A stretch of DNA of 33,529 bases, from positions 1 through 33,529 of the forward strand of contig JAIXMX010000010.1 of NCBI GenBank assembly GCA_020328155.1, read 5' to 3'. Below, in pieces: positions 1 through 5,995 of this stretch. Made by a program: the position numbers and the translations under genes. The notes below the pieces were generated by a model, which saw nothing but the letters and a program-made list of their open reading frames with translations, was not told where the DNA came from and did no database searches. Origin of the DNA: Candidatus Endomicrobiellum agilis. Its GTDB lineage: Bacteria > Elusimicrobiota > Endomicrobiia > Endomicrobiales > Endomicrobiaceae. The first letter of the stretch is position 1. Each line of letters opens with the position of its first letter.

Positions 1-880
1 TTAAAAGATTTGATGAAGTGCTTGGCGGAGGCGTGCGAGACGGCAGGCTGTACGCTTTGGGAGCAATAAGCAGTTTAGGTAAAACAACATTTGCTTTGAA
101 CATTGCTGATAACGTTGCGAAGGCGGGACGAGATGTATTAATTTTCAGCCTCGAGATGAGCCGAATGGAATGGCAAATGAAAAGTCTATCGAGACAAACT
201 TATCAGAGGTGTTTAGATGAGAAGATAAACGCTAATGAGTGCGCCGTATCGTCTATGAAACTACTAACACAGGCAGAAAAGAATTAACCGAACAACAAAC
301 CGAAGCACTCCAGAATGCAATTACAGAATATGCGAAAACCAGCGAGAGAATTTATATCAAAGAGGGCATCGGCGATGTCGGTCATAATCAAATCCGCGAT
401 ACAATTGCAAACTTTATGCAAGTGAAAAAAAACAGCCGTCCGTTAGTCATTATTGATTATTTACAACTTATGTCGTCGCCTGACCCAAAAAGCCGATTGC
501 TGGATAAGCAAATTGTAGATAAAAATGTGCTGGAACTGAAACGCATGACGCGGGACTTCAACCTGCCGATAATCGTCATTTCATCTTTTAACCGCGAAAA
601 TTACACCAGCTCAGCAAGTTTTCAGGCGTTTAAGGAAAGCGGGGCAATCGAGTACTCTGCCGACGTTGTAATCGCGTTGGAGCTAAACGTAAATAAAGGC
701 AGTGACGGAAAGATACCAGAGGAAGCAATCAACAACGCTAAAAATGCAGACCCGAGAGATGTAAAACTTGTCATTTTAAAAAATAGATTTTATAAAGCGT
801 GGACAATTACGTTTTTTAATTATTATCCTGCATTTGATTATTTTGAAGAAGACGAGGAAAAAAATGAGAAAAAAAAATAA
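1..880 (+). pseudogene. DnaB-like replicative helicase (AAA/RecA fold), partial and frameshifted
   Basis: This is a RecA-fold helicase of the DnaB type found on phages and mobile elements; it would unwind DNA at a replication fork. The gene enters from the left edge. The first frame, open from base 3 to 287, holds the Walker A motif GAISSLGKTTF and the segment DVLIFSLEMSR. The second frame, open from 239 to 880, holds the Walker B region VIIDYLQLM, then ELKRMTRDFNLPIIVISSFNREN and FKESGAIEYSADVV, all typical of the family. The two halves join without loss of conserved sequence if one indel lies at about 239-250, so the gene is probably a recent frameshift pseudogene; no slippery sequence is visible there. 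The start is outside the window. It reads towards the lipoprotein array and is the best sign that this block belonged to a mobile element. The family call is firm; loss of function is inferred. Confidence 0.8.
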
Positions 881-941
881 GGAAGAAGCCGAGCAAGAAA
901 ACAACGAATGTCCTTTTTGAGTTTCCCGCTCGGGTGATACC

Positions 942-975
942 AAAAAAATAAACGCAACGGAATTACCCGCTGCGT
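942..975 (-). terminator. Rho-independent terminator of the lipoprotein array
   Basis: Bases 952-960 and 967-975 pair to form an 8-bp stem with one A-C mismatch and a 6-base loop. On the minus strand the stem is followed by a run of Ts broken by one A (bases 951-942). It lies about 45 bases after the last minus-strand gene. This indicates that the block is transcribed from right to left and ends here, facing the convergent helicase fragment. Confidence 0.7.
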
Positions 976-1018
976 CTATTAAAAAGGATAATCTTGATGT
1001 AGCAAGGTTAATCATGGT

Positions 1019-1231
1019 CTATTTCCATATCGTTCCAAATCGTCTATTCATATACTCAGCGACCGCATTATTATTTTTCTCGCAATATAAGGTCATCTGG
1101 TCATCGCAACAAACAAAGTGATTACACTTATCAACAATCATATCTTGGAACTCACGATTATCAATACGACGAGCAAATGCAATTTGAGTAAAGAATACTA
1201 GACAGAGCAAAATCACAATATTTCTTTTCAC
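1019..1231 (-). CDS. Small secreted cysteine-rich protein
   Basis: This predicted secreted protein of 70 residues has no recognised family. It starts with a basic N-terminus and a hydrophobic stretch, MKRNIVILLCLVFFTQIAFA, which is a classical signal peptide ending in AFA. The mature part is about 50 residues and contains four cysteines (CNHFVCCDD and YCEK), so disulfide bonding or metal binding is possible. The GTG at 1231 is preferred because AGAGG stands 8 bases before it; ATGs at 1252 and 1288 are in frame but have poorer spacing or would put charged residues before the signal peptide. It is the last gene before the terminator at 942-975. It lacks a lipobox, unlike its neighbours. Function unknown. 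Confidence 0.55.
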   Translation of the reverse strand: MKRNIVILLCLVFFTQIAFARRIDNREFQDMIVDKCNHFVCCDDQMTLYCEKNNNAVAEYMNRRFGTIWK

Positions 1232-1336
1232 TCTAATAACCTCTTTTTTCATTTCATCTTGACATCTCTCAGTCCTTAGAAGAACCAATACGATACCCTG
1301 GATGATTTACCTGATGCCCAGCATGATTTATTTGGA

Positions 1337-1675
1337 TTACCATCTTGGACGCTTGAACTCTATCTCCCAAAGCTTTGCCTCACTATCAGACCGATAAATA
1401 CCGTAACCAAAAGCAATAACACTAGCAATTGCAATTGCACACCCAACAATCCATTCCACGTCCCACCAGAAGTAATTAGTATTATAAGCTTTCACTTCAT
1501 TCTTTGGATTGCTTGCTTTGATATACGAAGTTATAGCAGTCGCTTCTTGTAACGGCTCTGTTTGTACTGATTCGGTAACATTTGTGACAGCGTCCAACGT
1601 GGATAGTTGACGAGGCAGAGAAACACAACCCGATATAAGCAACAGCGTTAATACAGCTGATATTGCTTTCTTCAT
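1337..1675 (-). CDS. Lipoprotein with shared leader and one membrane segment (array gene B)
   Basis: This is a predicted lipoprotein of 112 residues with no known family. The leader MKKAISAVLTLLLISGC is a signal peptide with lipobox LISGC, so Cys17 should be lipidated on the outer face of the inner membrane. A linker of about 55 residues follows, then a hydrophobic segment at about 75-93 and a short basic tail (YRSDSEAK...KRPRW), which suggests that the C-terminus is cytoplasmic. About 34 of its first 45 residues match the gene at 2512-3126 by eye, and the DNA is similar too, but the bodies then differ completely. The start ATG is preceded directly by nine ATAGG units that provide AGGA as ribosome binding site. 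A double anchor of lipid plus membrane helix is unusual. Function unknown; the topology is inferred. Confidence 0.7.
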   Translation of the reverse strand: MKKAISAVLTLLLISGCVSLPRQLSTLDAVTNVTESVQTEPLQEATAITSYIKASNPKNEVKAYNTNYFWWDVEWIVGCAIAIASVIAFGYGIYRSDSEAKLWEIEFKRPRW

Positions 1676-1733
1676 ACCTATCCTATCCTATCCTATCCTA
1701 TCCTATCCTATCCTATCCTATCCGGACAGGCGG
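1676..1733 (-). repeat. (ATAGG)9 start-site repeat plus conserved flank, before gene B
   Basis: Nine perfect CCTAT units (1677-1721, followed by CC) read ATAGG on the coding strand and end one base before the ATG. They are followed by CGGACAGGCGGAAG, a variant of a flank also seen beside the arrays at 3128 and 5997 and the two-unit copies at 2060 and 6505. Each unit carries a possible Shine-Dalgarno base triplet AGG and a TAG stop. Because the period is 5, three units are enough to place a stop in every reading frame. Confidence 0.9.
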
Positions 1734-1880
1734 AAGTAATAATAAATTTTTTAATGAAGTCGGAACTGCTTAAATTCTTCTTTGATTATTGGGCTTAGCC
1801 ACCAATAAGAGGAAAACTGTTTGGAGTTGCTTTATTTATTTATCATCGCCACTAGGAGGCGGAGACCTAGCAGAACCCTT

Positions 1881-2058
1881 TTACCAAGAGCAACTATAAA
1901 AACCTTTACAAATTAGACCAAGAACAATAAGAACAACACCTATACTGATACCGATTTTAGTTTTGGTATCAGTTTTGTCAGGTTGAGATTTGTTAAGCTG
2001 TTTGCCACATCCTGAGATTAAGACTATACATAATAATAACGATATTATTTTTTTTCAT
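1881..2058 (-). pseudogene. Short lipoprotein, out of frame by one base at an A8 run (array gene C)
   Basis: From the ATG at 2058 the frame is wrong because the A-run after the start (bases 2048-2055 on the plus strand) has eight residues. With one A fewer it would read MKKIISLLLCIVLISGC, then a short Lys/Thr/Asp-rich linker, one membrane segment (IGISIGVVLIVLGLI) and a short tail KGFYSCSW, ending at the TAA at 1881. The length of 178 bases is one more than a multiple of three. The leader is clearly homologous to those of the genes at 4421 and 6091. Two ATAGG units stand before the start. It is either a pseudogene or a gene switched by the homopolymer, through DNA slippage or RNA polymerase slippage. 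The sequence cannot tell which. Confidence 0.7.
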
Positions 2059-2059
2059 T

Positions 2060-2084
2060 CCTATCCTATCGGGACAGCGGGACG
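2060..2084 (-). repeat. (ATAGG)2 start-site element before gene C
   Basis: Two CCTAT units at 2060-2069 are followed by CGGGACAGCGGGACGG, the same flank as at the longer arrays. The element abuts the end of the upstream gene at 2087 almost directly, so it forms the whole junction between the two genes. Confidence 0.75.
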
Positions 2085-2086
2085 GA

Positions 2087-2443
2087 TTATTCGTCTGTTT
2101 TTATTTCTTCTTCGGTTTTTGCAAAAAAGCTTTTTATGTAATCAAAACCTGCTACAGCGTAGTGTTTTATTAAAGGCGAAAACATAACAAGCTGTGCCGC
2201 AATAATTACGGCATATTTCTTTTTGCTCCACGTTTTGTGCGATGTCCCTTTAATGCAAAAATGTGTTGCGCATGCGCCTATTACAACGGGCATAAATTTA
2301 TCGGCAACCTTTAGCAGCTCCCCGCACTCGTTTTGCACAGTCATGCCCATGCTTACGGGCATCATTCTTTCTCTCGGGGCTTGCTGCGTAGTTTTTGCAC
2401 ACCCCATATTCAATATCAGTATCAGTATCAATATTTTTTTCAT
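2087..2443 (-). CDS. Putative lipoprotein with one membrane segment (array gene D)
   Basis: This is a predicted exported protein of 118 residues with no recognised family. The leader MKKILILILILNMGC is very hydrophobic and ends in Cys15. The lipobox (LNMGC) is weaker than in the neighbours, so lipidation is probable but not certain. The region of about residues 20-70 contains three further cysteines (NEC, GAC, HFC). A hydrophobic helix lies at about 77-97, followed by an acidic tail (TEEEIKTDE). Only one ATAGG unit stands before the start, within GAAGGATAGGT, which provides the ribosome binding site. The leader is not close to the two main leader families, so this member is either older or independent. 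Function unknown. Confidence 0.65.
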   Translation of the reverse strand: MKKILILILILNMGCAKTTQQAPRERMMPVSMGMTVQNECGELLKVADKFMPVVIGACATHFCIKGTSHKTWSKKKYAVIIAAQLVMFSPLIKHYAVAGFDYIKSFFAKTEEEIKTDE

Positions 2444-2511
2444 ACCTATCCTTCAGAAGTAACAACGAAAATTAAAATTCTTTTTATCTTTTTATACCAC
2501 ACGGGTCTCTT

Positions 2512-3126
2512 TTATTTCTTGTTCCCAGTTTGTACGTCTATGTCATGACGATTCAGTATCCCAACTAATCTTTGGACTTCTAAGCTCCATTTATTAATCT
2601 CATCTTTGCATTCGGCTAATTCTTTTTTGAGGCGAAACCAACCTTGTGCGAAAGGACTCAGCGAACTCTCGTCAGGGTGTTCTATCACTCGCACCAACTC
2701 AGACTCTCTCTGTTCCCATTCTTTAATCGCACCTTTTAATCTGTCTATCTCGTCTTGCAACACTTTTCTGTCGTCAGTCGACAATGTCTCGTTTTTTCTT
2801 TGCATCGGCTTTTTTGCATTAGCCAGATTATACGAGTTGTGCCATTGCACTGTTTTCTGATATTGCTTGTAAAGACCAAACAACGAAGCGGCGCAAGCCA
2901 AAGATAACACGCCTATGGCTATCCAATATCCTTTTGTGCTTTTTTCTTGCAATACAGGGCATTCTTGTTGCTTTGGGCATATGTCGGCAGGTGCTTTTTG
3001 TAACGGCTCTGTTTGCATCGAATCAGAGACATCTGCAACAGTGTCCGACTTGGACAGTTGACGAGGCGGGGCAACACAACCCGATATAAGCAACAGCGTT
3101 AAAACAGCCGATATTGCTTTCTTCAT
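2512..3126 (-). CDS. Lipoprotein with membrane segment and coiled-coil tail (array gene E)
   Basis: This is a predicted lipoprotein of 204 residues. The leader MKKAISAVLTLLLISGC and the linker to about residue 45 are nearly the same as in the gene at 1337-1675. Beyond this the proteins share nothing. A membrane helix lies at about 67-86 (GYWIAIGVLSLACAASLFGL), followed by a long charged region of about 115 residues rich in Glu, Lys and Arg with heptad-like spacing (DEIDRLKGAIKEWEQRESEL), which looks like a coiled coil. The basic residues just after the helix suggest that this tail is cytoplasmic. Eight ATAGG units precede the ATG. The architecture loosely recalls phage spanin or transfer-gene proteins, but no family can be named. 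Confidence 0.7.
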   Translation of the reverse strand: MKKAISAVLTLLLISGCVAPPRQLSKSDTVADVSDSMQTEPLQKAPADICPKQQECPVLQEKSTKGYWIAIGVLSLACAASLFGLYKQYQKTVQWHNSYNLANAKKPMQRKNETLSTDDRKVLQDEIDRLKGAIKEWEQRESELVRVIEHPDESSLSPFAQGWFRLKKELAECKDEINKWSLEVQRLVGILNRHDIDVQTGNKK

Positions 3127-3183
3127 ACCTATCCTATCCTATCCTATCCTATCCTATCCTATCCTATCCGGACGGCAGGAGAT
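3127..3183 (-). repeat. (ATAGG)8 start-site repeat plus conserved flank, before gene E
   Basis: Eight perfect CCTAT units at 3128-3167 plus CC are followed by CGGACGGCAGGAGATTTTTA. The same flank, including GCAGGAGATTTTTACATC, recurs beside the array at 5997-6050. The distance from the last unit to the ATG is identical to that at gene B. Confidence 0.9.
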
Positions 3184-3273
3184 TTTTACATCTAGCGGAG
3201 TAGTTCAATTATTAGCAGATCGCTATCTTGGAATAGTACACACTTTCATGCGATTTCCGTCGTTTATTAATCA

Positions 3274-4176
3274 TTAATCATTGTTATATCCATCTTCTTG
3301 GTCGCTGTCTTCAACATACGCTTGACCAAAGATTTCAACAGTCTCTCTTCCCGGCGGTATTAAGCTTACAGGGTAATACCATTTTTCGGGTTTCCCTTCA
3401 GCTATATATCTTATTCTAAACCTGTGTTTAGAATTTTCAACAAATTTTAGCTTCTCTCTTTTTACCTGTTCTCTTCTTTGCCGTTCTTTCAGTCCTATTC
3501 TGGGTTCTCTTTTTTTTTTAGGTCTTTTCTTGGTAATTAGTTTTTTACTTATTACTTGAGTACCTTCTACTTCTTCTGTAATCTGCTCTTCTTCTTAGGT
3601 TTCAAACTCTGATTGTTTCTCTTCTTCTTCATTTTCGCTTACGTATTCAGATTCACTTTGGTCGCCTAAGGAATTCTTAGTCTTCTTTCTTTTTATTTTA
3701 CTCCTTTTTTTTGGAGTCTTAGGAATTAGGTCTGACTTATCAAGTGTCTGGTCGTCCTTGTTTTCATTCAACTCATCATTGGGCTTTTTTTTCTTTTGTG
3801 AGCCGCTAGAAAAAGCTGATTCTGCTTCTTTTTTAGTAAACATCTTCTTAATTCCGCCCCACGCTTTGCCGTGCAGGTTGTACTTGTAATCGCACAAGGC
3901 AAATATAAAAACCGCTATTGCAGCCGTAGTTATTGCTATAGATTTCCAATGAGCAACAGTCCAATTCCACGCTGGACGCAGGTATCCGTCAAAGGTTCCG
4001 ACCTCTTCCTTAGTCTTTTCATCATTTATCTTTTTTATTTCTGCGGGCGACCTGCTGTCGCTCCGACCTGCTGTTTCCTACTGCTGAGCTTTTGGCGCTT
4101 CTGGGGATTGTAAAGTCTTCCCACAGCCTAGCGCTAAGCTCACACATACAAGCAATGCCAATATCTTCCTTTTCAT
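3274..4176 (-). pseudogene. Lipoprotein gene with two in-frame stop codons (array gene F)
   Basis: A single frame of 300 codons runs from the ATG at 4176 (AGGA 8 bases upstream) to TAA at 3274, interrupted only by TAG at 4078-4080 (codon 33) and TAA at 3595-3597 (codon 194). The first part is a lipoprotein leader, MKRKILALLVCVSLALGC. After the TAG come a linker, a membrane helix at about codons 78-95 (SIAITTAAIAVFIFAL), a basic stretch and a long Lys/Glu-rich region. After the TAA the frame continues for 106 codons with composition like a protein (KHRFRIRYIAEGKPEKWYYP). The layout of leader, linker, helix and charged tail matches the other array genes. Two nonsense mutations without any frameshift point to recent inactivation, or to readthrough. 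No ATAGG array is present at this start. Confidence 0.7.
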
Positions 4177-4192
4177 TTGTTTTGTCCTTTTT

Positions 4193-4420
4193 TTACTTTA
4201 TCACCTCTTTAGCGTTTTCTATAGCTTTTTCTGCGGACAATTCTCCTCTATCTATAGCGTCAAGTATGTCAATCAGCTGGTCAACTTTCACATGAGTCAA
4301 ATCGCCTGTCCCCTTAGTCATCTTTTCAAGGAGCGGAACGATGAGCCGCAATGCTTCTTGCAGCACGAGCAATTTAGTTTCCATTTTTTTCCCTTTTCCT
4401 TCCATAGCGTATAAACCCAT
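4193..4420 (-). CDS. Small helical protein between lipoprotein genes (array gene G)
   Basis: This is a 75-residue cytoplasmic-looking protein without signal peptide or membrane helix. It is mostly amphipathic helix (LLVLQEALRLIVPLLEKM; VDQLIDILDAIDRGELSAEK) with an acidic and a lysine-rich face. GGAGG stands 5 bases before the ATG, and this ribosome binding site lies inside the last codons of the lipoprotein gene at 4421-4581; the two genes meet as TAAATG, which suggests translational coupling. No family recognised. It is the only member of the block that is clearly not exported, and might be a chaperone or regulator of its neighbours, which is speculation. Confidence 0.6.
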   Translation of the reverse strand: MGLYAMEGKGKKMETKLLVLQEALRLIVPLLEKMTKGTGDLTHVKVDQLIDILDAIDRGELSAEKAIENAKEVIK

Positions 4421-4581
4421 TTATACCTCCACTTTAGGCGACGCTGAAGCTAACAGCGATGATGATGGACTTGGATTGATCTGATTAGCAGTTTTGTCAG
4501 GTTCAGATTGAGATTTGCTAAGCAGTCTATCACAGCTTGAGATTAAGATTACAGCTAACAATAACGATATACTTTTTTCAT
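4421..4581 (-). pseudogene. Short lipoprotein with a one-base deletion in the leader (array gene H)
   Basis: Compared with the gene at 6091-6498, one A is missing in the fifth codon, so the frame from ATG 4581 closes at once. Restored, it reads MKKVISLLLAVILISSC, DRLLSKSQSEPDK and a Ser/Pro-rich tail without a membrane helix, about 53 residues in all, ending in TAA at 4421. Its last codons contain the GGAGG of the next gene. The leader and its upstream DNA are homologous to those of 6091-6498. One full ATAGG unit and part of another precede the start. A recent frameshift pseudogene is the simplest reading. Confidence 0.65.
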
Positions 4582-4596
4582 TCCTATCCTAATGAC

Positions 4597-4659
4597 CAAA
4601 ATAATCAATTATCTTTTTCCCGAAGGTCGCCTTCTTTTCCAAAAACTGAAATCGTTTTG
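4597..4659 (-). repeat. Leader-region direct repeat, copy 1 (upstream of gene H)
   Basis: The region shares a near-identical block with 6572-6648, upstream of gene J. Both begin CAAAATAATCA and end with an identical 23-base stretch (4637-4659 and 6626-6648). In the copy here GAAGG and CCTTC form a small hairpin. It is probably a duplicated 5' untranslated region or promoter module that travelled with the lipoprotein leader. Confidence 0.7.
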
Positions 4660-4750
4660 CTCTGTTTCGCACGTTCGCAACAAAAAAATAATAAATAATA
4701 AAAGGTCATTAGAGCAATCTTATATTGTGAGAACAAGAGTACCTGTCATT

Positions 4751-4780
4751 ATTATACAAGCATTTACTAAAATTTTGCAA
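4751..4780 (-). promoter_or_regulatory. Predicted sigma70-type promoter for genes H to A
   Basis: On the minus strand TTGCAA (4775-4780) and TATAAT (4751-4756) are separated by 18 bases. The site starts just after the stop codon of the gene at 4781-5995 and could start a transcript for the genes to its left. Confidence 0.5.
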
Positions 4781-5995
4781 TTATTGAGAGGAAAACTGTC
4801 TGAATGTTAAAAATGGAAAATTTGGTATTTGTGAAAAGTTAGGAAAATTCGGCGCCGATAAAGGAATTTGCGGAAACTGATTTGCGGACTGGGCGGGCGG
4901 TGGAAATGGTGAAAATAGCGGCTGATTTGAGGGCAATTTGAAAATCGGGATTCTGGGTATATCGCGATCCAAACCCTTATTATTTTGTCCAATTTCGTAG
5001 TCGATTATTTTAATATCATTCTCTGTGAGAGACAAAAAAGAACTAAATTTAAGCAAAGAATAAAGAAAATTATTATAACGATGAAATTGTTCTGTTTCAC
5101 ATGGATAGGATTTTTCCATTTGGTTATAATAATAATTTATAAACGCTTGTATACTACTAAACCAACCACGAAGATTTTGAAGAAAAGCTGGTTGTATAGG
5201 ATCCTTTTCATCAATGTAATTATTAATTTTTGATAATTCAGCATCCAACTTTTGAAGTTCATCTTCTTGCGTATATAAACAAGAATCTCTCAATGAAAAT
5301 AACATTTGTCTATAAGTCATAAATCTCGCTGTATCAGACATATCTTTATAATCTTCTCGAAGAATAAATTTATTAACTTTTTTATAACATAATGAAATCA
5401 TCTCTTCGACAGAATGCAGAGGATGATTTATGCGCTTATTTAAAGCTAGGACTTCATTTTCTTCCTTGTATATATTTGCATCCCTTAAATCAATGAGCGA
5501 TTTTATATAAGACCTATACCGCTCGCCTAAACGAGAATTATCACCATGTCTACAATAGCTAAATAACCATTTGTCCGCAATCATCTGCATTGTATGTTGG
5601 ACAGGCGGTATCTTATAAAGTTGATGTTTATCATCTTTATAAACATTATAAAGTTTACAGAAAAGGTCAATAAAAAACGCTGATAATAGAGTTATGGATA
5701 CTACCGATAATATCGTAAATGGGTGCCTAAATATCCACGATTTTAGCTTCTCTAAAGCGGTCTGTTTTGAAACTTCAATATTTGTTTGAAGATTATTTTT
5801 TTCGTTAATACTGACTTGCCTTTTTGAAGTTTCTTGAATATTTGAAAACTTAGGTTCAGAAGCAAGAACTTTTAAAGGCTGTGGTACAAGGGCGGGAGCA
5901 TTTGAAGACTGAGGCACAGGACTGACGCTGTTAGTCCACCTGTCACAACCTGAGATTAAGATTGCTATTAAGAACACAGCTATTAATCTCTTCAC
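4781..5995 (-). CDS. Large lipoprotein with membrane helix and Pro/Phe-rich tail (array gene I)
   Basis: This is a predicted lipoprotein of 404 residues, the largest of the array, with no recognised family. The leader MKRLIAVFLIAILISGC has lipobox LISGC and Cys17. A linker rich in Ser, Pro and Gln follows, then a membrane helix at about 93-113. A mostly helical, Tyr- and Lys-rich region covers about 120-350. The last 50 residues are of low complexity, rich in Pro, Phe, Asn and Gln (PLFSPFPPPAQSANQFPQIP), and may bind partners. The start codon is GTG at 5995 directly behind six ATAGG units (AGGATAGGAGTG). If topology follows the other members, the large body is cytoplasmic. The gene is intact. 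Confidence 0.7.
   Translation of the reverse strand: MKRLIAVFLIAILISGCDRWTNSVSPVPQSSNAPALVPQPLKVLASEPKFSNIQETSKRQVSINEKNNLQTNIEVSKQTALEKLKSWIFRHPFTILSVVSITLLSAFFIDLFCKLYNVYKDDKHQLYKIPPVQHTMQMIADKWLFSYCRHGDNSRLGERYRSYIKSLIDLRDANIYKEENEVLALNKRINHPLHSVEEMISLCYKKVNKFILREDYKDMSDTARFMTYRQMLFSLRDSCLYTQEDELQKLDAELSKINNYIDEKDPIQPAFLQNLRGWFSSIQAFINYYYNQMEKSYPCETEQFHRYNNFLYSLLKFSSFLSLTENDIKIIDYEIGQNNKGLDRDIPRIPIFKLPSNQPLFSPFPPPAQSANQFPQIPLSAPNFPNFSQIPNFPFLTFRQFSSQ

Follow-up and report, generated by a model that had tools for sequence, protein, structure and literature searches.

A lipoprotein frame broken by two stop codons in a 'Ca. Endomicrobiellum' genome is probably an inactivated copy within a decaying mobile element

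Analysis of a 33,529-nucleotide stretch of DNA (the window, which is bases 1-33529 of contig 2 in an assembly that totals 1.286 Mb over 23 contigs) indicated that the interrupted frame at 3274-4176 very probably belongs to a large, species-confined lipoprotein family and represents a copy inactivated by nonsense substitutions in a decaying mobile element. The source is a member of the Endomicrobium/'Ca. Endomicrobiellum' lineage, symbionts of termite-gut flagellates, and the CysS encoded in the window shows 67-83% identity to those of termite-gut genomes of Endomicrobium and 'Ca. Endomicrobiellum'. The first-pass annotation had left two options for this frame, very recent loss or stop-codon readthrough; the loss option is supported by a sense codon in the nearest copies opposite the first stop, by uninterrupted homologues, and by frameshifted neighbours in the same block. 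The features concerned are as follows.

1..880, plus strand: 3' part of a DnaB-like helicase gene, with a frameshift near 240-287
981..4689, no strand: 3.7-kb lipoprotein block, both flanks of which are contiguous at three other places in the genome
1959..2067, minus strand: another lipoprotein copy, frame shifted just past its ATG A8 (signal-peptide match and reading of the sequence)
2512..3126, minus strand: open lipoprotein gene adjoining the target, with a (GGATA)n tract ahead of it
3274..4176, minus strand: interrupted lipoprotein frame (the target), made up of a signal peptide with lipobox, a linker, a single predicted membrane helix (WNWTVAHWKSIAITTAAIAVFIFALCDYKY), and a long charged tail
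3592..3594, minus strand: in-frame TAA, codon 195, in an acidic stretch of the tail
3848..3988, minus strand: 141-base patch between diverged flanks, sharing 96% identity with the lipoprotein copy on contig 6 and 92% with that on contig 23
4078..4080, minus strand: in-frame TAG, codon 33, with CAG at the aligned place in both nearest copies
4436..4579, minus strand: neighbouring lipoprotein copy, signal-peptide frame shifted relative to its ATG (signal-peptide match beginning at residue 2 and reading of the sequence)

The first-pass annotation had described a 300-codon lipoprotein frame with a TAG and a TAA inside and no frameshift. This description held once the frame was placed on the minus strand, running from 4176 to 3274; the plus strand of the same interval contains many stops when read directly. 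The minus-strand frame starts with an ATG preceded by an AAAGGA-type ribosome site, comprises 300 codons plus a stop with no frameshift inside, and translates as MKRKILALLVCVSLALGCGKTLQSPEAPKAQQ*ETAG...SEFET*EEEQ...GYNND*. It ends, as had been noted, in TAA TGA, with the TAA at 3276-3274 and the TGA immediately after it. The signal peptide and lipobox occupy residues 1-18, which are conserved in the copies, with the lipobox cysteine at position 18. An open frame of this kind is not expected by chance, since in none of 5,000 first-order Markov sequences matched to the dinucleotide makeup of the target did the best 900-base frame contain as few as three stops (mean, 17.5). The further claim that the frame is protein-like before, between, and after the stops was borne out for the second and third pieces, in which frame 1 had the highest codon-usage score among the six (0.181 and 0.202, respectively) with the 23 ordinary genes of the window as the reference; the first piece, at 32 codons, is too short to discriminate, and there frame 3 outscored frame 1.

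Comparison with homologues, which had been proposed as a check, supported loss. The nearest copies lie on contig 6 (63% protein identity) and contig 23 (50%), and more distant ones lie on contigs 9, 11, and 20. The contig 11 (247-amino-acid) and contig 20 (317-amino-acid) homologues are open from start to stop, and that on contig 9 is a 391-codon open frame without a stop, ended by the end of the contig. Both nearest copies read CAG GAA where the target reads TAG GAA, so that the first stop needs no more than one base substitution. At the TAA the tail has diverged too far for the original codon to be read from the alignment: the third piece and the tail of the copy on contig 6 share only a short match (WWYSV, YVQDSDQED), equaled by 1 of 500 shuffles, and the contig 6 copy contains an assembly gap; in the contig 23 copy, the signal peptide is frameshifted. 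With uninterrupted frames in homologues and a sense codon in relatives at the place of its TAG, the target fits a nonsense pseudogene.

The first-pass annotation had stressed two nonsense changes without any indel. The description is accurate, and such a pattern is slightly unusual for a decaying gene, which counts somewhat against loss; it is less remarkable than was supposed, because both kinds of lesion are common in the family. At least four other members (L014:5013, L016:10114, L207:5479, and L202:8659) carry one nonsense codon at a place where their relatives continue, and, in addition to the target's copy on contig 23, there are about seven frameshift candidates. Decay is also concentrated around the target: between the helicase and 6.5 kb, 4 of about 10 genes or gene pieces are broken (the helicase, the copies at 1959-2067 and 4436-4579, and the target), compared with 0 of the 22 window genes checked outside this block. 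The first 980 bases of the window are 88% identical to an intact copy of the DnaB-like helicase on contig 10 (497 amino acids); the dnaB gene on contig 16 is likely the chromosomal one.

These findings bear on the best-surviving alternative, that the gene is intact in the organism and that the stops are artefacts of sequencing error, misassembly, or strain mixture in a 23-contig draft. According to PMC11017572, stops inside genes of draft genomes frequently result from faulty assembly; in addition, a repetitive family invites misassembly, and the scaffolds contain gaps. However, no ordinary gene of the same window contains an in-frame stop, the sequence around both stops of the target is found in this copy alone, and the neighbours are broken as well, including a helicase that has diverged by 12% from its intact copy. 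We therefore consider an artefact unlikely.

On the preferred explanation, loss of the copy, the intact product would have been exported, cut, and lipidated at Cys18, and would carry a membrane helix as well as a charged tail. We infer that the target no longer works, as we do the order of the mutations: a recent copy most probably lost its use inside the element and gained nonsense mutations, and its frame would still be readable because the loss is recent. Translation would now end at codon 33 to give a 15-residue lipopeptide, and neither the second nor the third piece contains a credible start. According to PMC13345370, transcripts of symbiont pseudogenes may meet ribosomes yet rarely yield detectable protein.

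The other option of the first-pass annotation, that the TAG and TAA are read through or recoded to give a 300-residue lipoprotein, fared poorly and appears very improbable. In its favour, the frame is open and coding-like past both stops, and an in-frame TAG also occurs in some other family members. On the other hand, an alternative code in which TAG and TAA do not end genes does not apply, as both terminate ordinary genes in the window (5 and 15 of 23, respectively). The anticodons CTA, TTA, and TCA are all absent from the 41 tRNAs found; since the assembly lacks a few standard tRNAs, the list is incomplete, and this negative result is strong rather than exhaustive. Nor is a stop conserved at one place in the family, the nearest copies having a sense codon at the TAG site, and no relative shows a conserved readthrough arrangement for the second and third pieces. 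We also considered the TAG common to several members as a case of conserved readthrough and rejected it: the conserved segment that follows it (MPENVESVTEDILKE...) is found elsewhere in the family in varying reading frames and thus represents a separate downstream gene, whose start region overlaps the lipoprotein gene in varying frames.

That the target is really three separate genes, or a genuine short lipopeptide gene followed by others, is less credible still: a TTG in the second piece does open a 100-amino-acid frame, but it sits at the end of the membrane helix, the third piece contains no ATG at all, and in the homologues a single frame spans the signal peptide, the helix, and the charged tail, the arrangement of three separate genes named earlier as evidence against a single frame being seen in none of them.

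The setting of the target is consistent with decay of a mobile element. Window positions 1-980 and 4690-4820 adjoin each other on contig 10, and the sequences around this junction are also adjacent on contigs 15 and 23; the 3.7-kb block is therefore either extra here or lost from the other three sites. A possible insertion site lies next to a hairpin (AACGCAACGG/CCCGCTGCGT) that resembles a terminator of the array. On contig 15, a primase-like protein, a DnaB-like helicase, and a tyrosine integrase are encoded together with lipoproteins, and element-type helicases, an integrase, and a replication-like protein are among the neighbours of the family; judged by such gene content, the lipoprotein arrays appear to be mobile-element cargo. 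The putative decaying element with the target sits beside cysS. Related genomes that have sequence downstream of cysS carry no lipoprotein relatives there, and the nearest relative has ordinary genes at this place.

The family as a whole comprises about 70 lipoproteins and is nearly confined to this one genome. A signal-peptide query gave 32 matches at E values up to 0.001 and 80 at E values up to 10, and scanning 250 kb of selected stretches for lipoboxes gave 72 frames, a few of them by chance. The same query found family matches in only 2 of 41 congeners and none among plasmids, which also lacked a DNA match to the target. Relatives of the target's own subfamily were absent from 60 relatives and 77 family genomes, apart from two insignificant matches, and from GTDB contigs and viral contigs. 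Pfam and PHROGs contained no clear family for the lipoproteins.

Several repeats and associated sequences were observed in the arrays. The six-base repeat TATGTA forms 24 tracts of 2 to 12 units; in L010, L011, L012, L014, L063, L203, L206, and others these stand just after the ATG, within the signal peptide (MKKIICICICIC...SGC), so that changes in unit number would alter signal-peptide length in frame. There are 14 tracts of (GGATA)4-9, nearly all directly ahead of lipoprotein start codons (GGATAGGTATG); they occur at window positions 3126-3170 and 1675-1720 and in L009, L010, L011, L014, L015, and L205, and perhaps double as a ribosome site. A small gene (MPENVESVTEDILKETRNIYISAQSLIRRLCDRF...), without a match in Pfam, follows or overlaps lipoprotein 3' ends in varying frames in L206, L012, L063, L203, L205, L207, and L014. 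Lipobox proteins made of (YGYDKDG)n-like repeats are encoded at L013:15483-16160, L013:12155-12778, and L009:1-4000.

We speculate, with little confidence, that broken copies serve as silent donors from which gene conversion moves short patches between members, helped by the simple repeats within signal peptides and ahead of start codons, to generate new surface lipoproteins. The 141-base patch, with 96% identity to a copy on another contig and diverged flanks, fits such a role and plain duplication followed by decay alike. The family is a useful by-product of this work and of more interest than the two stops; its products could be exposed to the host protist, and variation in length can be tested at its repeats. 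For the target itself, loss removes one candidate for stop-codon readthrough and provides an example of ongoing decay in a host-restricted genome.

Among comparable systems, a congener (G067) has, on three 5-kb contigs, lipoprotein genes with the same kind of signal peptide and lipobox, as well as a replication-like protein with 41% identity to one on contig 23 of the present genome; it has only three family matches, however, compared with some 70 here, and none to the subfamily of the target. The pseudogenes of 'Ca. Endomicrobium trichonymphae' Rs-D17 (PMC2613244, PMC4505116) come from the same lineage as the genome studied here, and those of the host-restricted symbionts Rs-D17 and Sodalis (PMC7067036) resemble the present case in that genes of a small genome remain readable yet are broken by stops or frameshifts. 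The difference lies in what is decaying: here decay was seen in a lipoprotein family that appears to be borne on mobile elements, not in old metabolic genes.
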